From IMG/VR virus record IMGVR_UViG_3300042691_000538, positions 1 to 23,641 of that record: a stretch of 23,641 bases of DNA; one strand, written 5' to 3'. This DNA is from a virus. Shown here piece after piece: positions 4,110 through 17,987 of this stretch (the stretch's first letter is position 1; every line of letters starts with the position of its first letter). The notes under the pieces are model-generated. The model had not been told where the DNA came from and did not search any database. It was given only the letters and a program-made list of their open reading frames with translations. The position numbers and the translations under genes were made by a program.

Positions 4110-4484
4110 ATGGCTACCCCTAATTTAGCAAACGTAACAACAATCACACCTGCAAATTCGCAGGTTTATCTGACAACAACTAACGCAACAAGCCTTGCAA
4201 GTAATGCGGCTTCAAGCGGTACGGTGTTGAAGATTGAAAGTTTGGTTGTGTCAAACTCAGATACAACAACGGCATATACCGTTACGATAAATACTTACAG
4301 CGCCGCCGCTTTGGGTGGTACGGCATATCCGATTGTTTCTACTTTGTCGGTTCCTGCCAACTCTTCAGTCATTGTGATTGACAAGACCAACACCATTTAC
4401 CTCAATGAGAATCAATCATTGGGTGCAACGGCTGGTACAGCAAATGAAATTTATGTAAATACTTCTTATGAGGTAATGTCGTAA
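4110..4484 (+). CDS. Small virion structural protein, beta-sandwich-like
   Basis: The product has 124 residues, is Thr/Ala/Ser-rich and has no charged clusters. The pattern of alternating hydrophobic strands (VLKIESLVVSNSDTTTAYTV, then SVPANSSVIVIDKTNTIYL, then NEIYVNTSYEVMS) resembles small single-domain beta-sandwich proteins of phage heads or fibres. AAGGAG at 4099-4104 supports the start. The stop TAA shares its last base with the ATG of the glycine-rich protein, so the two are probably translated together. A fibre accessory or decoration role fits; nothing more specific can be seen. Confidence 0.65.
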   Translation: MATPNLANVTTITPANSQVYLTTTNATSLASNAASSGTVLKIESLVVSNSDTTTAYTVTINTYSAAALGGTAYPIVSTLSVPANSSVIVIDKTNTIYLNENQSLGATAGTANEIYVNTSYEVMS

Positions 4485-6361
4485 TGAGCCAAAGAAACCC
4501 CGGCGGCCTGATCAGCGGAACCGCCATCAATGTAACTACATTTGGGGCAAGTGGCATCTTCACTTTGTCTCAGGTGCAACAGTTCATTTCCGCTGGCAGG
4601 TGGCCTCAAAACTTCTTTACCGTCATTGAAACTATCACAGGTTCAGGCACATGGGTGTGTCCCACAGGTGTTACAACTGTTGACTACCTTGTAGTCGCAG
4701 GTGGCGGTGGTGGTGGATTTGGTGTTTGTACTAGCTACGTAGGTGGTGGTGGCGGTGCTGGTGGTTATCGACAAGGCACAGGATTCCCTGTTTCCGCTGG
4801 TGTTGCGTACACGGTTACAGTAGGCGCTGGTGGTTCTGGTGGAACAACGGGGCCTAATGTTTCTGCTGTTAATGGAAGCAACTCAGTTTTTGGAAATGCT
4901 CCTAATGCAGTTACATCTGCTGGTGGTGGCAGAGGCGCATCATCTGGCGCACCAAGTCCATTATTAGGTTGCGCTGGCGCTGGTGGTTCTGGCGGTGGTG
5001 GGGCGTCAAATTACAATAATTCCCCTGCGGCGTCTCTCCCCGGCGGTGCAGGAAATACACCAACTACATCTCCATCGCAAGGCAACAATGGTGGTAATGG
5101 TGGTGGTTTCTCAATTCCTTGTTGTGGCATATTAGGAGCGCAAGGGGGAGGCGGTGGTGGTGCAAGCGCAATTGGTGGCAGTGCTCCCGGTACTAATGCA
5201 AACGGGCGACCCGGTGGCGCAGGCTCCGCCTCTACAATTAGTGGCGCATCAGTAACTTACGCAGGGGGTGGAGGCGGTGGCGGATGGGGTTGCAATATTG
5301 GCGACTCTGGTGGCTCTGGCGGTGCTGGTGGTGGCGGTGCTGGTGGTGGAAAAAACCAAGTAGGCACGGCAGGCACAGCTAGTTTGGGCGCTGGGGGTGG
5401 CGGTGGTGGTGGAACTTCTACACCTTTTGGTGCCGTAGTTGGCGGTGCTGGCGGTTCAGGTATTGTCATCATTAAATACTTACAACCCACAACCAATACC
5501 GTTTTTGACTTCAACGCATCTACGATTTGGAAATGCCCCACAGGTATTAACTCTATTGACTACCTAGTAGTTGGCGGTGGTGGCGGTGGTGGTGGCACAA
5601 CGGCTGGCCCATCAGGTGCAGTAACTGGTGGTGGCGGAGGCGGTGCTGGGGGCTTCCGTATTGGCTCTGGCTTTGCTGTGACGCCCGGCTCTAACTACAT
5701 CGTTACTATTGGCGCTGGCGGTAGAGGGGGTAATTTTAACGCCTCAAGTCCCACTACTATTGGTGCAAATGGTGTTGCTTCTAGTTTTGTAATTTCCCCC
5801 GGCGCTTCGCCAACTATTATTGAATCTGCTGGTGGTGGTCGTGGTCGTGGTGACGGGAATCCTGTTGCTACGCCTGTAGGAAATGGCGGTTCTGGTGGTG
5901 GAGGTGGTTCAGCAACAGTTACTGCTGGAAATGGAAATATTCCTTCTGTATCTCCAGCGCAAGGCAATAATGGCGGAACTGGCTTATCCCCTCAGCAACT
6001 TGCTGGAGGTGGAGGTGGCGCTGGTGCTGTTGGCGGTAGTGGAGTTGCTCCAATTACAATTGGGTCAGGAGGTGCTGGAACTGCTTCATCAATCACTGGC
6101 TCATCTGTAACTTATGCTGGTGGCGGTGGTGGCGGTGGTCTAGGGCCAAGAACGCCATCAACAGGGGGCGCTGGTGGAGGCGGGGCTGGTGGATTTGCAA
6201 ATGCGTCGCCCAGTCCACTTGGTTCACTATCTGTTGCTGGAACCGCTTTTACGGGCGGCGGCGGCGGCGGCGGCGGATTTTCTGCGTCTCCAATCCCCGG
6301 CACTTACGGCGCTGGTGCGGCAGGTGGTTCTGGTATTGTTATTTTTAAAGCTGTGGGGTAA
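4484..6361 (+). CDS. Glycine-rich tail adhesin with two tandem modules
   Basis: The product has 625 residues. An N-terminal segment (NPGGLISGTAINV..., to about residue 45) resembles phage fibre attachment regions. Two modules follow, each opening with a beta strand and a W-x-C-P-T-G signature (W57/C59 and W349/C351, 292 residues apart), then DYLVV(A/G)GGGGG, GGGAGG(Y/F)R, a strand Y-x-VT(V/I)GAGG, many GGGGG tracts, and SGIVI at the module end. Glycine-rich domains of this kind form polyglycine-II helix bundles in T4-type gp38 adhesins (known for phage S16). Here it is most likely the receptor-contacting tip, with variable loops between glycine tracts. The small gene and oxygenases behind it may assist or modify it. 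Confidence 0.75.
   Translation: MSQRNPGGLISGTAINVTTFGASGIFTLSQVQQFISAGRWPQNFFTVIETITGSGTWVCPTGVTTVDYLVVAGGGGGGFGVCTSYVGGGGGAGGYRQGTGFPVSAGVAYTVTVGAGGSGGTTGPNVSAVNGSNSVFGNAPNAVTSAGGGRGASSGAPSPLLGCAGAGGSGGGGASNYNNSPAASLPGGAGNTPTTSPSQGNNGGNGGGFSIPCCGILGAQGGGGGGASAIGGSAPGTNANGRPGGAGSASTISGASVTYAGGGGGGGWGCNIGDSGGSGGAGGGGAGGGKNQVGTAGTASLGAGGGGGGGTSTPFGAVVGGAGGSGIVIIKYLQPTTNTVFDFNASTIWKCPTGINSIDYLVVGGGGGGGGTTAGPSGAVTGGGGGGAGGFRIGSGFAVTPGSNYIVTIGAGGRGGNFNASSPTTIGANGVASSFVISPGASPTIIESAGGGRGRGDGNPVATPVGNGGSGGGGGSATVTAGNGNIPSVSPAQGNNGGTGLSPQQLAGGGGGAGAVGGSGVAPITIGSGGAGTASSITGSSVTYAGGGGGGGLGPRTPSTGGAGGGGAGGFANASPSPLGSLSVAGTAFTGGGGGGGGFSASPIPGTYGAGAAGGSGIVIFKAVG
6254..6274 (+). repeat. Pure (GGC)7 trinucleotide tract in the adhesin gene
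   Basis: Seven uninterrupted GGC codons encode glycine near the end of the second module. Other glycine runs in the gene mix GGT, GGC, GGA and GGG, so this pure tract stands out. A pure triplet run can change length by slippage without breaking the frame. Confidence 0.8.
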
Positions 6362-6363
6362 TC

Positions 6364-6621
6364 ATGGAACGTGAGTTTTATCAGTTATATGGTATTGACA
6401 CTGCGATGCACTTGTTGCGTCCCGGTGCAAAATGGGAAATCTCCAACACAATGTTCACTCGTTGGGATGATCCTCGACCTTGCCCAACCATTGAAGAAGT
6501 GCATGAAGTGATGGAAAAGATCAAGGCGTTTGAGAGCACCATTGACACAGTGTTTACTGAAGCTCAATTAAAAGAACTTCGTGGTCAACATGACATGATT
6601 AGCAGGGCTGTGAACGCATGA
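6364..6621 (+). CDS. Small fibre-associated protein (XkdW-like pattern)
   Basis: The product has 85 residues. The order LRPGAKWEIS..MFTRWDD, then PCPTIEEVHEVMEKI, then a C-terminal helix with EAQLKEL, resembles small proteins coded directly behind tail fibres (the XkdW-like layout of a short beta element, P-x-PT-x-E-E and a helix). The resemblance is weak and no function is proven for that family; a fibre assembly partner is one idea. It starts two bases after the adhesin stop and its stop overlaps the next ATG by four bases, which ties it to the fibre and oxygenase group. Confidence 0.65.
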   Translation: MEREFYQLYGIDTAMHLLRPGAKWEISNTMFTRWDDPRPCPTIEEVHEVMEKIKAFESTIDTVFTEAQLKELRGQHDMISRAVNA

Positions 6622-7217
6622 ACATGTTTAACCTATTCCCCACGCCCGTGGCTTTTTCCAAGTTTGAAAGAGAACTGACGGAAGAAGAGCTTGCGTTCTT
6701 TAAGAACCAAGAGCAAAAGCCTAATCAGGGGAATACAACAAGCGCTGACAGGAAGATACTTGAACACGCTTTGATGGCTGATGTTTGTGCTTCAATTCAA
6801 AAAGCGATTGATACATACTTCCAAGAGGTTTATCGCCCTAAGTTTGATGTCAAGTTACGGATCACACAGTCATGGATGAACTACTCAGAGCCGGGGCAAT
6901 TCCACCACAAACACGCTCATCCAAACTCATTCTTGTCAGGATGCTTTTACCCACAGGCAAACAAAGAACTTGACAAGCTGTACTTCTTCAATGAGCCGTA
7001 TCACCGCATTAGGATTCATTCAGAGGATTTTAATGTCTACAATTCTGATTCTTGGTGGTTGCCTGTTGGTACTGGTGATATTGTGATCTTCCCATCATCT
7101 TTAACTCACATGGTTGAAAAAGTCGAAGCAAAAGAAACACGCATCAGCCTCTCGTTTAATACGTTTCCTGTTGGCTATGTTGGCAACGACGACTCTTTGA
7201 CTGGGTTGCACCTGTAA
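6618..7217 (+). CDS. 2OG-Fe(II) oxygenase (TIGR02466-like), first of three
   Basis: The product has 199 residues, near the usual length for the small phage 2-oxoglutarate/Fe(II) oxygenases that open with LFPTPV, as here (residues 6-11). Candidate iron ligands are in HHKHAHPNS (H96-S104), probably H99 and H101, and the distal H164 in SSLTHMVE. R175 in TRISLSFN is the likely 2-oxoglutarate anchor. SFLSGCFYP after the first ligands matches the family's SGVYY strand. Such enzymes hydroxylate proteins or small molecules using O2 and 2OG; the substrate is unknown. The ATG at 6618 overlaps the upstream stop; a second ATG at 6624 is possible. Two further oxygenases follow. Confidence 0.85.
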   Translation: MNMFNLFPTPVAFSKFERELTEEELAFFKNQEQKPNQGNTTSADRKILEHALMADVCASIQKAIDTYFQEVYRPKFDVKLRITQSWMNYSEPGQFHHKHAHPNSFLSGCFYPQANKELDKLYFFNEPYHRIRIHSEDFNVYNSDSWWLPVGTGDIVIFPSSLTHMVEKVEAKETRISLSFNTFPVGYVGNDDSLTGLHL

Positions 7218-7777
7218 TGCAAAAGAATCTACAAGACTACGTTAAGGTTTACAACGGCTTTTTGGATGATAAGCTGTGTGACTCTGCTGTTGAGAATCTT
7301 AAAAGCATTCACTTTCAACAGCATCAGTTTTATGATGCAAAAAACAACTCATATCTTAGCTACGATAAAGAGCTGTCAATTTCGCATGGAAACATTCCTG
7401 AGAAAACTGCAATCCAAGAACGGTTTTGGTACGCCATTCGTGACTATTTGAACGAGTTTAAATTTAAATGGTACAACGGTTGGAATGGGTATTCGGAAAT
7501 TCGCTTCAACAGGTACGACACCAATACGCAGATGGAGTTGCATTGCGACCACATCCACAGTATGTTTGATGGTCAGCGCAAGGGTATACCAATCCTAAGC
7601 GTTCTTGGAGCGTTAGATGATGGCTACAAGGGTGGAGAGTTTGTGATGTGGGAAGATACTGTGATTGAGATGCCAAAAGGCTCTGTTATGGTGTTCCCAT
7701 CTAATTTTATGTACCCCCACAAAGTAAATGAAATCACTAAAGGCGTAAGGCATAGTGTGGTTTCGTGGGTTTTTTAA
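7217..7777 (+). CDS. 2OG-Fe(II) oxygenase, prolyl-4-hydroxylase-like, second of three
   Basis: The product has 186 residues with a complete double-stranded beta-helix signature: H109-C-D111 (iron), a strand ILSVLGALDDGYKGGEF, then MPKGSVMVFPSNFMYPHKV with H168 (iron), and GVRHSVVSWVF with R178 (2OG carboxylate). The order and spacing match the P4H/PKHD type, which hydroxylates peptidyl proline or lysine in known members. The phage substrate is unknown. It is not closely similar to the preceding oxygenase (HxD against HxH), so the pair is not a recent duplication. ATG overlaps the upstream TAA by one base. Confidence 0.85.
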   Translation: MQKNLQDYVKVYNGFLDDKLCDSAVENLKSIHFQQHQFYDAKNNSYLSYDKELSISHGNIPEKTAIQERFWYAIRDYLNEFKFKWYNGWNGYSEIRFNRYDTNTQMELHCDHIHSMFDGQRKGIPILSVLGALDDGYKGGEFVMWEDTVIEMPKGSVMVFPSNFMYPHKVNEITKGVRHSVVSWVF

Positions 7778-7779
7778 TC

Positions 7780-7784
7780 GGAGA
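7780..7784 (+). promoter_or_regulatory. Ribosome binding site deciding the start at 7791
   Basis: GGAGA lies just after the oxygenase stop (TAA 7775-7777) and six bases before ATG 7791. It favours that start over an upstream in-frame GTG at 7755, which would lie inside the oxygenase gene and lacks such a site. Confidence 0.6.
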
Positions 7785-7790
7785 TATGTA

Positions 7791-8156
7791 ATGGCACATT
7801 TTGCTGAACTCGACTCAAACAACACGGTTTTGCGTATTGTTGTTGTTAAAAATGCAGACACCGCAGACGCTAAAGGCGTTGAAAAAGAATACATTGGTGC
7901 GGCATACTGCGAAAGGCTCTTTGGGGGTCGTTGGGTGCAGACCTCGTACAACGGTTCTATTCGTGGTCGTTACGCTGGCGCTGGCATGATTTACAACGAA
8001 GAACACAATGTTTTTACAGGTGTCAAACCTTACCCATCATGGGTTTTTGACAGCACCACAAAAGACTGGGCGGCTCCTACTGCAAAGCCTAATGATGGCA
8101 AGCAGTACGACTGGAGCGAGTCAACTTTGTCTTGGGTTGAGAAAGTTGCTGAGTAA
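7791..8156 (+). CDS. Conserved small phage virion-type protein
   Basis: The product has 121 residues from the ATG at 7791, chosen over an upstream GTG because of the ribosome site and the typical MAHFAELD opening. It has NTVLRIVVV, a Cys-containing segment AAYCERLFGGRWVQTSYNGS, GRYAGAGMIYNEEHNVFTGV, PYPSWVFDSTTKDW and a C-terminal YDWSESTLSWV. Proteins with this layout are common near tail fibres and oxygenases in aquatic phages and are usually called structural; I know of no proven role. It lies between the second and third oxygenases, with one-base overlap to the next gene. It could be a fibre part or an oxygenase substrate; both are guesses. Confidence 0.75.
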   Translation: MAHFAELDSNNTVLRIVVVKNADTADAKGVEKEYIGAAYCERLFGGRWVQTSYNGSIRGRYAGAGMIYNEEHNVFTGVKPYPSWVFDSTTKDWAAPTAKPNDGKQYDWSESTLSWVEKVAE

Positions 8157-8776
8157 TGTCTTCCAGCTTTGCAACAAGCTACTATTTTTCTTCGGCGGTC
8201 TACACTGCCGAGGAACCTCAGTTTTTGGATGAAGCCAAAACTGTTGTTGCGGACTACCTAAAGAACTCTGTAAAAAGCCCTGACGGTTTGCTCATTCAAA
8301 CAGGAAGTATGTTTGATGGTCGCTTAGAAGGTTTGATTAAACACATAGCCCAGTCTGGTTGGAATATTTTAGACAGCCAAGGCTACGATATGAGAGACAA
8401 GAGCACAAATCTCATGGAGTTTTGGGCGCAAGAGCATCAAAAGCATTCAGGTATGGATGAGCACATTCACGGTGCAGGCGCTCAGTTGGTTGGGTTTTAC
8501 TTCCTTGATTGTCCTGACGAAGAGGCGAGGATTGTTTTCTCAGACCCAAACCAAGCCAAGAAGCAGATTAACCTGCCACAGAAAGACATTAGTCAGGTAA
8601 CGCTTGGAACCACGATGGTAAACTTTCAGCCAAAGCCGGGTCTTTTAATTATGACCAACGCTTGGGTTCCGCATCTGTTCACCCGCAACAGATCTGACAA
8701 GCCGTTTACGTTCATTCACTTTACGATTGGCGTTGAGAAGGCTTTGCCGCCCCCGCCCCCTGCCGAGGTGATATGA
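8156..8776 (+). CDS. 2OG-Fe(II) oxygenase-like protein, third of three, lacking the usual Arg
   Basis: The product has 206 residues. MEFWAQEHQKHSGMDEHIHG supplies H103-x-H105, followed by the strand LVGFYFLDCP and RIVFSDPN, then PGLLIMTNAWVPHLFTRN with H173. This is the arrangement of the TIGR02466-like oxygenases. Aligned to the first oxygenase, the 2OG-binding Arg (R175 there) falls on F184 here (DKPFTFIHF). R176, R178 or K182 might substitute, or the protein may bind another acid or have lost activity. The N-terminal half is helical. It ends in a Pro-rich tail (PPPPPAEVI). The stop overlaps the next ATG by four bases. Confidence 0.75.
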   Translation: MSSSFATSYYFSSAVYTAEEPQFLDEAKTVVADYLKNSVKSPDGLLIQTGSMFDGRLEGLIKHIAQSGWNILDSQGYDMRDKSTNLMEFWAQEHQKHSGMDEHIHGAGAQLVGFYFLDCPDEEARIVFSDPNQAKKQINLPQKDISQVTLGTTMVNFQPKPGLLIMTNAWVPHLFTRNRSDKPFTFIHFTIGVEKALPPPPPAEVI

Positions 8777-9027
8777 ACACGTACAAGATCAGGTTTAACA
8801 AAAGCAGAGGCATGGAAGGTCGTGGTTCTATGGATCACGTCTGGCGCGTCTTTGAAAACGACAAAGAGCTTCTGTTCAAGAACCTTGACATCACCGTCCC
8901 CGTCAAAAGCGAAAAAGATGCTAACGGGGTAGACTACAACATCACTTGCCAAGGCTATTTGACAATGGATCGAGACACATCCACCGCAGTCATAACAGCC
9001 ACGGTCAAGGAACTAGAGCCTGCATGA
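8773..9027 (+). CDS. Small conserved-type phage protein of unknown function
   Basis: The product has 84 residues and is mostly beta: YKIRFNKSRGMEGRGSMDHV, WRVFENDKELLFKNLDITVP, YNITCQGYLTMDRDTSTAVI. It has no membrane segment and no catalytic motif. It overlaps the third oxygenase gene by four bases and the following membrane peptide gene by four bases. The N-terminal pattern is familiar from uncharacterised phage proteins in similar positions. It may be a virion or fibre accessory or belong to the lysis block; the sequence does not decide. Confidence 0.7.
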   Translation: MNTYKIRFNKSRGMEGRGSMDHVWRVFENDKELLFKNLDITVPVKSEKDANGVDYNITCQGYLTMDRDTSTAVITATVKELEPA

Positions 9028-12781: not shown

Positions 12782-13119
12782 TTGTTATCTCTGATTTTGA
12801 AATCAACCAAGTTGCTTCGCCTAACTTACCACTGGCTCCAATAGAGTATGAGCGGCAATATGCTGACCAACTTAACAACGTTTTGCGTCTGTACTTTAAC
12901 AGGGTCGATGCAATTCTTGACCAACTAAAAACAGACGAGATTATCCCTGCATTGACTAACTACACGGTGTCTACACTGCCTAGCGCAGTTACTTCTGGTT
13001 TAGGTGCAAGATCTTTTGTAACAGATGCACTAGCTCCAACATTTGGGGCAACAGTGGTGGGTGGCGGGGCAGTGGCTGTACCTATATATTCTGACGGAAC
13101 AAATTGGAAGGTCGGATAA
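12778..13119 (+). CDS. Small fibre-tip or nozzle-associated protein
   Basis: The product has 113 residues in two parts. The N-terminal part (NLPLAPIEYERQYADQLNNV, LRLYFNRVDAILDQL) is helical with a trimer-like heptad feel. The C-terminal part contains VSTLPSA, GARSFVTDALAPTFGATVVG and a final PIYSDGTNWKVG, an ending found at the tips of many phage fibre and particle proteins. It is coded directly after the nozzle-like gene with a four-base overlap, so attachment to the nozzle is a fair inference. Its stop shares one base with the next start. Confidence 0.7.
   Translation: MIVISDFEINQVASPNLPLAPIEYERQYADQLNNVLRLYFNRVDAILDQLKTDEIIPALTNYTVSTLPSAVTSGLGARSFVTDALAPTFGATVVGGGAVAVPIYSDGTNWKVG
13106..13111 (+). 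promoter_or_regulatory. Ribosome binding site deciding the start at 13119
   Basis: GGAAGG lies seven bases ahead of ATG 13119. An in-frame TTG at 13104 would put this site inside the coding region, so the ATG is preferred; it also makes the protein begin exactly at the first repeat domain (MAVTDADI). Confidence 0.55.
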
Positions 13120-16100
13120 TGGCAGTAACAGACGCAGACATTCTTGGTTGGCTAAACGCTAATCCCGATGCGGACGACACGCTAATTGCTACCACTATGC
13201 AGGCGGCGGGGGTAACTCCGGAGCGGATGTCGCAAGTAACTAACACGGACTTAGGCAGTATTCAGTCTCGGTACGACGCCGCTTTGGGCATTGCGTCGCT
13301 CCCTGCCGCCGCCCCCGTTACACAAGAAGTTGATTATTCTGCGCAACAGTTTCAGCCAGATGTATATTCTCAATCAACTTATGACAGCCCCAACACTTCT
13401 GTAAACAATACGCAAGTTGCGGATGTATACACATCGGATACATACACACCGGATACATACACACCAGATACGTACACACCGCCGACTGGAATTGCTACCC
13501 TTACAAACAACACGCAAGTTGCGGATACAACTCAAGCTCAAACCCAAACTCAAGCTACTAAAGTAACCGATGCCGACATCCTTGGTTGGTTTAATGCTAA
13601 CCCCGGCGCAGACGACGCCACTATTGCTAGGGTAATGCAGGAAGCTTCTGTGTCGCCAGAACAACTGGCAAGGGCTACTAACACTAACTTAGCTGATGTT
13701 CAGACTAGGTATGACGCGGCTATTGCTAATGACGATACAACGCAAACACAAACACAAACACAGCCAGCAGCGGTTGATCTGTCTAAAGCAGTTGACCTAA
13801 ACAACGGCACGTTCTTAACTAATACTGGCGCGATTGTTAACTCTGAAGGTAGCGTAATTAAAGATACTGGCTCTGCTGCTACGACTACGTTAACCCAACA
13901 AATTCTTTCTCAAAACTTAACAGACAAATGGACGGGTGAAGGTAAGGGCACTGCGCAAGCAAACGCCGCTGATATGGCAAGCATTTTGGCCAGTATTGAT
14001 ATTACCGACATTAAAGATTTTGGTGTTGTTCCTGTTTACACACCAGTCCAAGAAATTGGCAAAACGTATAACGGGCAGTATGTTAGAACTGTTACCGATG
14101 AAGATACTGGTAAAACTACTCAAGTTATTAGTGTACCTTCAGGGCAATATGACTCAGAAGGCAATGAATATTATAAATCAGTAGAAGTTCCAGCAGGGGC
14201 AAAGCTAACAACCTTGTATGGTCAAGACAACGGCAATGGTGAATTGGAAGCAATTGACCCATCAAAACTTAAAACAGTAGACGGCAAACTTGTAGCCGAT
14301 ACAGGGCAAACAACCTACGGCAACAAAAAGACTGGGGAAGCTGTTCCTAGTACTTATGGTGAGCGACAAACAGGAAATGCTTTTGGCGGTACGTTTGATG
14401 GCAGTGGGAACACTGGCTATCGAGTTCAATTCACTCCTGACGGCACGCCAATCTTTTATACAACGTACGCAACTTCTAATGATCTTGCTATCCTTATGCA
14501 AGACCTTGGCCCGATTGGTCAAATTGGTTTGGCGTTGGCTACGGGTGGTCTGTCTATACCCCAACAAATTGCGGCTAATTTAGCTGTAAATGTTTTAAGT
14601 GGTAAAGATATTGGGGATGCAATTAAGGGCGCTGCAATCAGTTTTGCTGGCGCTCAAATCCCCGGCATGGATTTTATGGGGGAGGGAGCTTCATTTATTA
14701 AAGACCTTGGATTGCCAGCGGGTGTTACAGACAGTTTAACTAAAGGCTTTCAGAACGCCGCAGTTTCTGCTGGCACTGCGTTGCTTAGTGGCCAAGATGT
14801 TGGCGAAGCTATGACTAGAGGTTTTGTTACCGGTGGTGTTAACGGTGCTGTTAATTCGCTTTTAGGTAATATTGAAGGGTTTGGCGACCTGACTGACACT
14901 CAGAAAAAGTTGGTTACTAACGCTGTAACAGGCGTAGTTTCCGGCAAACCTTTAGACCAGATTGTTATCAATAGCGCTATTACTGCGGCTAACTCAGCCA
15001 TTGCCGACGCTAAAAGTACAAGTACAAACACAGAAGATACGCTAACTAAAGCTGGGTTAGTAGACGGCAATGCTGCAACAGATGCCGACACTATTACCTC
15101 ACTCCTTGCCAATAAGGATGTTGTTTCGTCTATTGGTAGCGATGCAGTTACAACCCCGGACACATTAAACCTCGGCGGTGCGGATGCGCTTGCAAAAACT
15201 CTTACAGACGCTAGTACGCTTATTGATACTGAGTTTGGTGACCTAAAAGGCGCGCAAGATAAAAACGCCGCAAACGACCAACTGCGGGATACGATTAGAA
15301 CCAGCAGTAGCTTTAATGATGCGTATGCGCTAGCACGTAAAGAACTTGGCGCGAATAAAACATTTGATTGGTTTAACCCCAAGACAGGCAAAGTAGAAAG
15401 CTTTAGCACCGCTACAAAAGAAGAACGCCCAGATTTAAACGTTACCGCCGGTGACAAAGCAATTGCTGCTTTAAACGCATCTAATTTATCTACAGTAACT
15501 GACGCATCCAGTACAGTTGCAGCACAGGGTGATACGGCTGCTAGAACACTTGCTGCTGCGCCAGATCAAAACTCGGCTGAAACTAAACGTCTAACAGCAT
15601 TAAATAATTCTTTAGTATTAGGTAACGCTCCTAACCAATCAACGGCAGAAACCGCAAGACTTGCTGCGCAGAACAAAACTGCCAAGCTGTCGGCTGAAGA
15701 ATCTGACAGTGCAATTACGTCCGTGTTTAAAAACGTAACGGGTACATTATCCGCAGCCGCAGGTGAACAAGCATCCGCACTTGAGGGCGCTCTTAAAGCT
15801 AGTGGAGCTATTGGCAAAAACAGCCTTCTTGCGGGTATGGCAAACGGTTTGACTTCTTACGGAGCAAATAATGTTAGTACCAAAGCTCAAGAGCAAGAAC
15901 AAGGGTTTGTAACTGAGATTGCTAAAGCTGGTAACACTGGAAATTTCTGGTCTGACGCTGGCGCTAAATTAAAAGTCCTACCTTCAGCCATTATTAACAA
16001 CCCAATTGGTTTTGGTTACGCTGTAGTTAAAGAAGGTATCCAAGAAGTTATTCCAATTTTGACTGGCGCTACTGCGGCTAAGTGGGGCGGTAAATTTATA

Positions 16101-17987
16101 GGCTTTGCTGCCGACGCTATTGTTAACGGGGTTGAAGCTGGCGGCGCAGGATACAACGGCACTGTGGCAAAGGCCGAAAAAGCCGGTATGAGTGAAGCAA
16201 ATGCACATGCTGCGGGTCAAAAAGCGTTTGTTGCTTCCGCCACTGTAGCTGCGGTGCTTGGCCCTATTGTTGATGCTCCGTTTATTAAACGGGCCGCGGG
16301 TGACGTAGTTGAAAAAACAACTCTTAGTACAGTAGGTAAATCAGCGGCTAAAGAAATGCCGCTAGAGTATGTAGAAGAAGGCGCAGCCCAAGGCTTTGAA
16401 GACTATTTTGCTACCGGCAAGGTCAACGTAAATAACATTTTGACGGGTGCAACCGCTGGCGCTGCTGTTGCTGGACACACTGTAGCTTCTATTCAGTTGG
16501 GCGAAATGGCGCTGAGTAAGGTAGAACAAGCGGCTTCTTCTGAAATACTTACTTCCGTAGCTGGCGATAAAGCCGGTGAGTTGCAGACTCAAGTTGCAAG
16601 CACTCTTGCAAATACTAAAAACTTGTCAGACGCCGGTACGCAGATTGCAACTACGATGCAAGACGCAGGCATGAACGTTAACCAAGCTCAGTCGGTTGCC
16701 AATACTGTTGTGGCCGAGGCGGTTGTTCATAACCTTACAAAGACTAGCGGCGCAGATACTAAGTTTAGTGTTGATAATTTAAACGCGCCTGTTGGCTTTG
16801 ATACAGACGGCAATGCGGTCACAGTCGGTGATGTGCTTGGTTCTAGCGTAACGGGTAAAGGCCCTGAATTTAAAGTCCAACCAGATGTAGTTATTGGCAC
16901 TGCGGGTGATGGTAAACCCTTAACAATCGGCGATTTGACTGGTTTAAAGGCTAAAGATACCCCTATCACAACCGATGCAAAAGCAACTGCGGCTGCGGCG
17001 GATGCTAAATCAGATGTTGTTGCTGCCCTAGAAACTGCGGGACTGTCTGAGACTAAAGCCGACACACTTGCAGACGTACTTGCTGATACCAAGTCTGATG
17101 TAGATACTAAGGCTGACACAGCTACAGATACCAAGCTAGACACCAAGCTAGATACTAAGGCTGACACAGCTACAGACACCAAGCTAGATACTAAGGCTGA
17201 CACAGCTACAGACACTAAGCTAGACACCAAGCTGGACACTAAGGCTGACACAGCTACAGACACCAAGCTGGACACTAAGGCTGACACAGCTACAGACACC
17301 AAGCTAGATACTAAGGCTGACACAGCTACAGACACTAAGCTGGACACTAAGCTAGACACCAAGCTGGACACTAAGCTAGACACCAAGCTGGACACCAAGC
17401 TGGACACCAAGCTGGACACAGACGTAGACACAGACACAGACACAGACTTAGACACGGACACAGACACAGACACAGATACTAAAATAACTACCGATTTACC
17501 TAATATTGAAGAAGTAGAAAAAGTTATTGACGACTTAGACGATGACGTAATTGACAAGGTTACTACCCTGATAGATGACCCAATTGTTGATAAAATTATC
17601 AATGATCCAACCAAACAGCCGCCGCCTAAGCCGCCTAAGAATCCAAAGGTTCCAAGCAAAATTACGGGTTTAACTTGGCCTCAAGCCACTGCATTGGCAT
17701 CGTCTTTTGGTACGGCTCAGTTGGCCAACGTGTTCTATTACGGCAAAGACTTTGGCTCTAAGAAGCAAAAGGTCAGCAAGTCAGGCAAGTTGGAGCAAGA
17801 AGAGTACAAAGCGCTGAGCGTCACCAAAGCCGGTGCTGAGGGTGAAAAAATCGAGGAAGAAGAGCTTGCTCGAAAAGACAAAACCGACGAAAATGACGTC
17901 GAAGAATTGCTTAAAAAGATTGAAGGGTCAAGTGACAACGCTGCGACCCCCGAAGAAATTGCAGAAATCATAAGGCAAGGAGCCTAA
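13119..17987 (+). CDS. Giant repeat-containing internal/ejection-type virion protein
   Basis: The product has 1622 residues. Two 55-residue helical domains (3-57 and 149-203) flank a spacer with DTYTP repeats. A polar beta region follows, then a hydrophobic helical stretch with IGLALATGGLSIPQQIAANL (about 456-500), a motif FNDAYALARKELGANKTFDW, two 23-residue repeats, and an Ala/Gly-rich domain (about 942-1132) with AAKEMPLEYVEEGAAQGFED that recalls polyvalent phage proteins. Residues 1329-1454 are Asp/Thr/Lys repeats, then a Pro/Lys hinge (QPPPKPPKNPKVPSK) and an acidic helical C-terminus. No peptidase or transglycosylase site is evident. Length, position behind the nozzle and membrane-prone segments suggest a protein carried in the head and injected with DNA; this is inference. 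Confidence 0.75.
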   Translation: MAVTDADILGWLNANPDADDTLIATTMQAAGVTPERMSQVTNTDLGSIQSRYDAALGIASLPAAAPVTQEVDYSAQQFQPDVYSQSTYDSPNTSVNNTQVADVYTSDTYTPDTYTPDTYTPPTGIATLTNNTQVADTTQAQTQTQATKVTDADILGWFNANPGADDATIARVMQEASVSPEQLARATNTNLADVQTRYDAAIANDDTTQTQTQTQPAAVDLSKAVDLNNGTFLTNTGAIVNSEGSVIKDTGSAATTTLTQQILSQNLTDKWTGEGKGTAQANAADMASILASIDITDIKDFGVVPVYTPVQEIGKTYNGQYVRTVTDEDTGKTTQVISVPSGQYDSEGNEYYKSVEVPAGAKLTTLYGQDNGNGELEAIDPSKLKTVDGKLVADTGQTTYGNKKTGEAVPSTYGERQTGNAFGGTFDGSGNTGYRVQFTPDGTPIFYTTYATSNDLAILMQDLGPIGQIGLALATGGLSIPQQIAANLAVNVLSGKDIGDAIKGAAISFAGAQIPGMDFMGEGASFIKDLGLPAGVTDSLTKGFQNAAVSAGTALLSGQDVGEAMTRGFVTGGVNGAVNSLLGNIEGFGDLTDTQKKLVTNAVTGVVSGKPLDQIVINSAITAANSAIADAKSTSTNTEDTLTKAGLVDGNAATDADTITSLLANKDVVSSIGSDAVTTPDTLNLGGADALAKTLTDASTLIDTEFGDLKGAQDKNAANDQLRDTIRTSSSFNDAYALARKELGANKTFDWFNPKTGKVESFSTATKEERPDLNVTAGDKAIAALNASNLSTVTDASSTVAAQGDTAARTLAAAPDQNSAETKRLTALNNSLVLGNAPNQSTAETARLAAQNKTAKLSAEESDSAITSVFKNVTGTLSAAAGEQASALEGALKASGAIGKNSLLAGMANGLTSYGANNVSTKAQEQEQGFVTEIAKAGNTGNFWSDAGAKLKVLPSAIINNPIGFGYAVVKEGIQEVIPILTGATAAKWGGKFIGFAADAIVNGVEAGGAGYNGTVAKAEKAGMSEANAHAAGQKAFVASATVAAVLGPIVDAPFIKRAAGDVVEKTTLSTVGKSAAKEMPLEYVEEGAAQGFEDYFATGKVNVNNILTGATAGAAVAGHTVASIQLGEMALSKVEQAASSEILTSVAGDKAGELQTQVASTLANTKNLSDAGTQIATTMQDAGMNVNQAQSVANTVVAEAVVHNLTKTSGADTKFSVDNLNAPVGFDTDGNAVTVGDVLGSSVTGKGPEFKVQPDVVIGTAGDGKPLTIGDLTGLKAKDTPITTDAKATAAAADAKSDVVAALETAGLSETKADTLADVLADTKSDVDTKADTATDTKLDTKLDTKADTATDTKLDTKADTATDTKLDTKLDTKADTATDTKLDTKADTATDTKLDTKADTATDTKLDTKLDTKLDTKLDTKLDTKLDTKLDTDVDTDTDTDLDTDTDTDTDTKITTDLPNIEEVEKVIDDLDDDVIDKVTTLIDDPIVDKIINDPTKQPPPKPPKNPKVPSKITGLTWPQATALASSFGTAQLANVFYYGKDFGSKKQKVSKSGKLEQEEYKALSVTKAGAEGEKIEEEELARKDKTDENDVEELLKKIEGSSDNAATPEEIAEIIRQGA
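13125..13289 (+). repeat. 55-residue helical domain, copy 1
   Basis: This is the first copy of the domain VTDADILGWLNANPDADDTL...MQAAGVTPERM...QSRYDAALG. It has the same length as copy 2 and shares the core D-x-x-I, M-x-x-x-x-V-(S/T)-P-E and RY-x-AA. The predicted fold is three short helices. Confidence 0.85.
13422..13481 (+). repeat. Four 15-bp tandem repeats coding D-(T/V)-YT-(P/S)
   Basis: Four in-frame 15-bp units encode DVYTS, DTYTP, DTYTP and DTYTP in the linker between the two helical domains. The last three differ by only two third-base changes, so the tract looks recently expanded. Confidence 0.85.
13563..13727 (+). repeat. 55-residue helical domain, copy 2
   Basis: This is the second copy (VTDADILGWFNANPGADDAT...MQEASVSPEQL...QTRYDAAIA), beginning 438 bases after copy 1 and of identical length. 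The protein match is much stronger than the nucleotide match, so the duplication is not very recent. Confidence 0.85.
15558..15695 (+). repeat. Two 23-residue tandem repeats (AP-x-Q-x-x-AET-x-RL)
   Basis: APDQNSAETKRLTALNNSL and APNQSTAETARLAAQNKTA align with a period of 23 residues in the middle of the giant protein. They would form two amphipathic helices. This is a separate repeat family from the domains at the N-terminus. Confidence 0.65.
17103..17480 (+). repeat. Coding minisatellite: DTKADTATDTKL (36 bp) and DTKL (12 bp) units, then D-T runs
   Basis: Six 36-bp units code for DTKADTATDTKL. Units 1 and 3 carry one extra DTKL and unit 6 is followed by six DTKL units, then Asp-Thr dipeptides to 17480. 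Units differ only by synonymous changes (GAT/GAC, ACT/ACC, CTA/CTG). A 68-base stretch at 17154-17221 recurs without a mismatch at 17274-17341, exactly 120 bases later, which shows a higher-order duplication. All units keep the frame. Confidence 0.92.
17977..17982 (+). promoter_or_regulatory. Ribosome binding site for the gene at 17989
   Basis: AAGGAG lies six bases before ATG 17989 and just inside the end of the giant gene, supporting that start for the next protein. Confidence 0.65.

Follow-up and report, generated by a model that had tools for sequence, protein, structure and literature searches.

A conserved glycine-rich fibre cassette with 2OG-Fe(II) oxygenases in aquatic phages

Among the enzyme genes of aquatic phages that still lack an explanation, those for 2OG-Fe(II) oxygenases rank with the commonest. 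Many are recorded in cyanophages (PMC3037559, PMC9602691) and clusters of them in pelagiphages (PMC9599517), and the relevant sections of these papers interpret them as auxiliary metabolic genes. The closest described arrangements are those of HTVC023P-type pelagiphages (PMC9599517) and cyanophage T4-GC 101/155/412 (PMC3037559), which, like the locus described here, hold several co-located, nonorthologous oxygenases of the same superfamily. In the sections concerned, both papers take the enzymes as metabolic and draw no tie to a fibre cassette. What appears to be new here is that enzyme families already known stand in a conserved fibre cassette, since an open-access full-text literature search returned neither a description of this cassette nor a paper linking these oxygenases to fibre modification.

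Mimivirus L230 is a collagen lysyl hydroxylase. It may serve as an analogue in the way it works, being a virus-encoded 2OG oxygenase that accompanies virus-encoded, repetitive, Gly-rich (collagen-like) proteins. The likeness drawn here is one of function. Mimivirus is a eukaryotic virus, the enzyme is a lysyl hydroxylase, and the collagen Gly-X-Y repeats differ from the poly-Gly runs of the phage protein.

The window, by which we mean the whole stretch of DNA analysed, comprises an entire IMG/VR record (23,641 bases). It is a tailed-phage fragment carrying late genes, among them virion structural proteins, an endolysin, a holin, and a 627-aa structural protein of phrog_3287. Compared by megablast with phage records, the window as a whole gave zero DNA-level matches. 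The cassette consists of the following genes:

GLY, 4484..6361, + strand: 625 aa, glycine-rich fibre/adhesin-type protein with two Gly_rich_2 domains and the motif GN[TI]P..SP[SA]QGNNGG in each
p85, 6364..6621, + strand: 85-aa partner; phrog_21526, 4.5e-19
OXA, 6618..7217, + strand: 199 aa, TIGR02466/PF13759 2OG-Fe(II) oxygenase; H99, H101, H164, R175
OXB, 7217..7777, + strand: 186 aa, PF13640 2OG-Fe(II) oxygenase; H109, D111, H168, R178
p121, 7791..8156, + strand: 121 aa, conserved, phrog_7759; the best start is 7791
OXC, 8156..8776, + strand: 206 aa, divergent PF13759 oxygenase; H103, H105, H173; T185; R177
p84, 8773..9027, + strand: small partner, adjoining OXC in its freshwater clade (40 OXC genes)

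Judged by eye, the genes are tightly coupled: p85 and OXA overlap in ATGA, as do OXC and p84, and the junctions OXA/OXB and p121/OXC read TAATG. Around the cassette, scans for promoters and terminators stayed at chance level. The gene that had been noticed between the second and third oxygenases is present and is p121. The oxygenases were also thought to lie directly behind the adhesin; GLY is indeed just upstream, but one gene further off than supposed, as p85 intervenes. Elsewhere in the window (13104-17987) lies the gene of a 1627-aa protein to which no family was assigned; it contains, at 17101-17476, degenerate repeats of 24-120 bases in an array that encodes TDTKLDTKADTA-type units.

Enzymatic features of the three oxygenases

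The three ORFs were found at the stated coordinates, all on the + strand, and profile searches placed all three products in the 2OG-Fe(II) superfamily. OXA passed the cut-offs of both PF13759 (76.3 bits, cut-off 27) and TIGR02466 (67.6 bits, cut-off 62.5), matched phrog_81 (1.8e-42), and matched by sequence the PDB structures 3bvc and 2rg4, solved members of this family of putative oxygenases, which as a family has no assigned substrate. Like them it has an HxH..H..R pattern; its triad H99/H101/H164 is invariant in the alignment, and the 2OG-binding R175 is present in the OXA rows. OXB belongs to another family, PF13640 (2OG-FeII_Oxy_3, P4H/PKHD type; 44.5 bits, cut-off 27), matches phrog_61 (1.2e-30), and shows the HxD..H..R residues H109/D111/H168/R178, invariant in 31 aligned relatives. 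PiuC (9ghl) was its sole PDB match by sequence (E 0.0009). Its assignment to the P4H/PKHD type holds at the level of the Pfam family but not of the PKHD equivalogs, since it fell far under the cut-offs for the YbiX/PiuC hydroxylases (44.6 vs 143 bits or worse).

OXC shares its Pfam family with OXA but only about 13 percent identity. It scored 38.5 bits against PF13759 (cut-off 27) and matched phrog_81 (9.3e-17), but lay below the TIGR02466 cut-off (32.1 vs 62.5 bits). An AlphaFold model built with 42 sequences (pLDDT 94) has the DSBH fold, and its best PDB matches were 3bvc (E 1.6e-11, TM 0.73) and 2rg4. OXC thus resembles the TIGR02466 structures in modelled fold and PF13759 membership and differs from them in its sub-cut-off score and in missing the usual Arg. 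With its triad H103/H105/H173, the predicted set of one HxD..H and two HxH..H enzymes was borne out. For OXA, OXB, and OXC, dN/dS against near relatives was 0.02-0.08; all three are under purifying selection, and we confirmed all three as 2OG-Fe(II) oxygenases with intact metal ligands. The superfamily scores above curated cut-offs, together with these dN/dS values, argue that the trio is not a chance finding.

The missing Arg of OXC deserves closer attention. The usual 2OG-binding position, H+12 from the distal His, is occupied by T185 and is Thr in all window-lineage copies, and the window OXC carries an Arg, R177, at H+4. A profile scan recovered many OXC relatives, which fell into a freshwater-type and a marine-type clade. 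In the former, OXC is followed by p84 (40 genes) and in some loci stands directly behind p121; H+12 is R, K, T, N, I, S, or Q, and H+4 is Arg or Lys in 40/40. In the latter, H+12 is Arg in 38/38 and H+4 is mostly Val. As Arg or Lys at H+4 is invariant only in the clade where H+12 varies, these alignments suggest a shift rather than a loss, in which the 2OG anchor may have moved from +12 to +4 with R177 as candidate substitute; the two positions can face each other on an antiparallel hairpin. The Thr of the window lineage and the variable H+12 of the p84-linked clade, set against the uniform Arg of the other clade, could instead mean that OXC alone is a pseudo-enzyme or a non-2OG enzyme, which may bind metal without canonical turnover. 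We consider this unlikely, given that the metal-binding His residues are kept in 78/78 relatives, that H+4 is always basic in the clade concerned, and that dN/dS for OXC is 0.06-0.08.

Gene order across viral loci

Scans of viral contigs yielded 68 OXA loci, 152 OXB loci (80 kept), and 7 OXC loci, and the gene order seen in these oxygenase-scan loci was GLY-p85-OXA-(OXB)-p121-(OXC-p84). Our first co-occurrence table included loci found through OXA. Because oxygenase-based sampling favours oxygenases, we repeated the analysis with p121- and p85-anchored loci only. In p85-anchored viral loci, the next gene was OXA in 76/79 and p121 in 3, with 1 further locus undetermined. Among 59 nonredundant p121-anchored cassettes, 24 had both OXA and p85, 2 had OXA alone, 5 had p85 alone, and 28 had neither, a strong co-occurrence (OR 67, p 1.4e-9). 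The gap between GLY and p121 in these 59 cassettes, all with GLY upstream, was empty in 26 and held p85-OXA in 22, p85-OXA plus one gene in 2, p85 alone in 5, OXA alone in 2, and other contents in 2. The start of OXA overlapped the stop of p85 (ATGA) in 113/150 cases.

Whether or not a cassette has oxygenases, p121 nearly always comes after GLY. The p121- and p85-anchored counts make GLY-p121 the basic pair, into which p85-OXA is often inserted as a coupled unit; OXB is a further insert, present in 10/80 nonredundant OXA+p85 cassettes and absent from 70/80. The recurrent cassette is GLY-p85-OXA-p121, and the oxygenase trio is not the conserved unit. The original prediction held that the three enzymes are kept together, and took this to suggest stepwise or multi-site modification of a common target. 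Among the loci compared, however, OXA, OXB, and OXC shared one cassette only in the window's near relatives and in the diverged contig L072, and most cassettes had OXA as their only oxygenase. Since the trio is rarely together and OXC moves independently, stepwise action by three enzymes is not implied, and an accretion of separate activities fits better. The fibre linkage that had been proposed was supported by the regular passage from p85 to OXA.

Comparison of the window with L072 also bears on the mobility of OXC. Identity reaches 82-96 percent over an island that holds the gene, whereas the flanking OXA, OXB, and p121 are 55-78 percent identical, which points to recent exchange of OXC between diverged phages. 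Together with the p84 pairing, these comparisons indicate that OXC is a separate module that moves independently.

The oxygenases are not confined to the cassette. OXA lay away from GLY, p121, and p85 in 24/65 OXA-anchored loci and OXB in 47/80, with 6 more OXB loci having OXA only; many phage copies sit in replication or other regions. These loci count against a role in fibre maturation and amount to half of what the original prediction had named as evidence against itself, oxygenases standing singly and far from fibre genes; the other half, failed profile placement, did not occur for any of the three enzymes. They also agree with the published reading of cyanophage (PMC3037559) and pelagiphage (PMC9599517, PMC11561400) oxygenases, in the sections of those papers that concern them, as host-metabolism genes, which would use 2-oxoglutarate or hydroxylate host molecules and thereby retune nitrogen or energy metabolism, with the fibre neighbourhood incidental. 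For the cassette enzymes we judge this reading improbable, as it leaves unexplained why OXA so regularly follows a virus-only fibre-cassette gene and why it is linked to a GLY subtype, an association that remained when tested on the p121 tree (see below).

Some cassettes contained other genes. A 125-128-aa protein is encoded between OXA or OXB and p121 at L006:1744-2121, L030:2079-2459, and L100:6552-6938, and the L030 copy gave no family matches. An HNH homing-type endonuclease lies inside one cassette, flanked by OXA and p121 (L005:3019-3486), and the same slot in L250, L260, and L316 holds unlabelled genes of similar size.

GLY subtypes and proposed fibre maturation

GLY matched PF21722 (Gly_rich_2) in two stretches (138.6 bits, cut-off 24.3; 4.3e-40) and phrog_2295 (1.6e-79), and its neighbourhood and a match to the tail family phrog_863 suggest that it is a virion fibre. 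Most GLY proteins preceding p85-OXA stop directly behind the Gly-rich domain, and proteins of this group carry WTxP, FRTG, and GNTPSxSPSQGNNGG. The P.QG motif of the last stretch was present in 76/80 GLYs beside p85-OXA vs 10/38 others, FR.G in 73/80 vs 2/38, and WT.P in 67/80 vs 2/38. In their sequences the GLYs beside p85-OXA form a subtype distinct from those before p121 only. In p121-anchored loci, the motif was associated with any nearby OXA, OXB, or OXC (25/8 vs 5/22, p 2e-5). This association kept p <= 0.001 when trait evolution with 9-10 changes was simulated on the p121 tree, a small, single-gene tree subject to recombination. As the motif is only one subtype feature among several, the association could be due in part to common descent of GLY and the cassette.

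There were exceptions in both directions. Among 10 motif-bearing GLYs without OXA in the slot, at least 5 loci have OXA-, OXB-, or OXC-type genes elsewhere (L036, L146, L151, L161, L162). In eight nonredundant loci that bear the motif, the available DNA, partial for some, contains no oxygenase of these families, and two large phages (G002 and G003) with OXA distant from the fibres have Gly_rich_2 proteins without the motif; both observations count against fibre maturation. The two large phages rule out the motif as a universal OXA target. Amino-acid composition pointed to no clear single modified residue; OXA-linked GLYs were longer and Gly-richer, and their Pro content was slightly raised (3.49 vs 3.14 %, p 0.03).

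p85 is practically virus-only, with 1 match in 84,980 species genomes, and has the invariant residues Y6, R19, P20, W24, W34, D36, R38, P39, and P41. A resemblance to XkdW was too weak to keep (E 0.09, in 1/15 members only), and its PDB profile matches, mostly designed or unrelated helical proteins, were uninformative. The AlphaFold model of p121 is confident (pLDDT 94), and its fold found no PDB match better than E 0.17.

Taken together, gene content, active sites, linkage, translational coupling, and covariation with the GLY subtype best support a mechanism in which OXA modifies the fibre protein or its partner. Gene linkage alone is not proof that GLY is the substrate. We propose that the cassette genes are co-translated late, and that the hydroxylases would act on the upstream-encoded GLY, or its partner, before fibre assembly. 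p85 may be an adaptor or fibre chaperone presenting GLY to OXA, the putative core enzyme, which would hydroxylate a side chain in the GLY domain. OXB and OXC could add further sites, with p84 helping OXC. The effect would be expected in how the Gly-rich lattice folds, in its rigidity, or in contact with the receptor. That OXA, and by extension OXB and OXC, modify GLY or an assembly partner is a reading we hold to be somewhat probable, and the common target in a Gly-rich fibre foreseen by the original prediction is plausible in light of the subtype and motif association and the p85-to-OXA order. The Pro/Asn/Ser-rich GNTPSxSPSQGNNGG, which occurs about once per domain, would be the best single candidate site; that it is the exact one is less likely than fibre maturation in general.

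The p85-OXA pair is the tightest in the cassette, and with nine invariant residues p85 could itself be the substrate in place of GLY, hydroxylation switching its chaperone activity on or off. Yet some cassettes have OXA without p85 and a few the reverse, and the GLY-subtype association would be left to p85 alone (p85-motif phi 0.69); we find a p85 substrate very unlikely. Returning to GLY as the target, we offer more tentatively, as a possibility we would not yet favour, that aquatic phages share a dedicated adhesin-hydroxylation system (GLY, the p85 adaptor, OXA, and p121) with plug-in extra oxygenases. If so, phage receptor-binding proteins would be hydroxylated post-translationally by the phage's own enzymes, and many cyanophage and pelagiphage oxygenases now read as metabolic would gain a function. 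The conserved cassette, recurrent enzyme, partner gene, and candidate target motif turn this into a simple mass-spectrometry question.

Isolates and tailoring islands

Two to five oxygenases lie beside GLY/p121 in the isolates S-SSM5, P-RSM4, S-CAM8, and HTVC023P. In the Kyanoviridae S-SSM5, P-RSM4, and S-CAM8 the genes run from a Gly-rich protein through a carbamoyltransferase, a 2OG oxygenase, and a 'ferrochelatase' to p121 and p85, behind which come 3-4 oxygenase-profile genes; in these clusters the oxygenase profiles give four or five matches, to other subtypes and some of them weak (27-35 bits). Pelagiphage HTVC023P reads GLY-GLY-p121-x-OXB-OXC, with gp65 and gp66, beside GLY and p121, as the OXB-like and OXC-like genes. 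It belongs with HTVC033P to the marine-type OXC clade, whose order is GLY-p121-x-OXB-OXC-x. HTVC008M has GLY-p121 beside four annotated oxygenases. The pattern spans quite different phages and oxygenase subtypes, as expected if selection keeps the neighbourhood and not one enzyme.

In the marine phages L120, L121 (a contig of 200,843 bases), and L124, a large tailoring island lies next to a Gly-rich protein and a p121-like gene; it consists of about five genes of 2OG-oxygenase type, two tryptophan halogenases, and a Nol-like carbamoyltransferase. Such enzymes often act on small molecules or glycans, and their proximity to a Gly-rich protein, like fibre linkage alone, is compatible with oxygenases whose target is a surface or defence protein of the host, or a surface glycan, needed for adsorption or superinfection exclusion, and which share the operon with the fibre because both concern the receptor. 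The association with GLY's own sequence features and the translational coupling to p85 favour a phage substrate, and we regard a host-surface target as rather unlikely.

Several labels in these regions are questionable. The P-SSM2 'ferrochelatase' YP_214401.1 (L163:5980-6573) is a PF13640 oxygenase (2.1e-9) and OXB-like (186 bits), and the 'ferrochelatase' family phrog_3531 also matches OXB; phrog_2954 proteins had no Pfam match. The published co-occurrence of oxygenases and ferrochelatases may thus partly rest on such labels. Likewise, two proteins labelled 'DNA endonuclease (V)', L120:1973-2503 (- strand, phrog_274) and SSSM5_048 of S-SSM5 (L402:8402-8920), weakly resemble 2OG oxygenases (PF13640 4e-4; OXB profile 35 bits), and these labels look doubtful.
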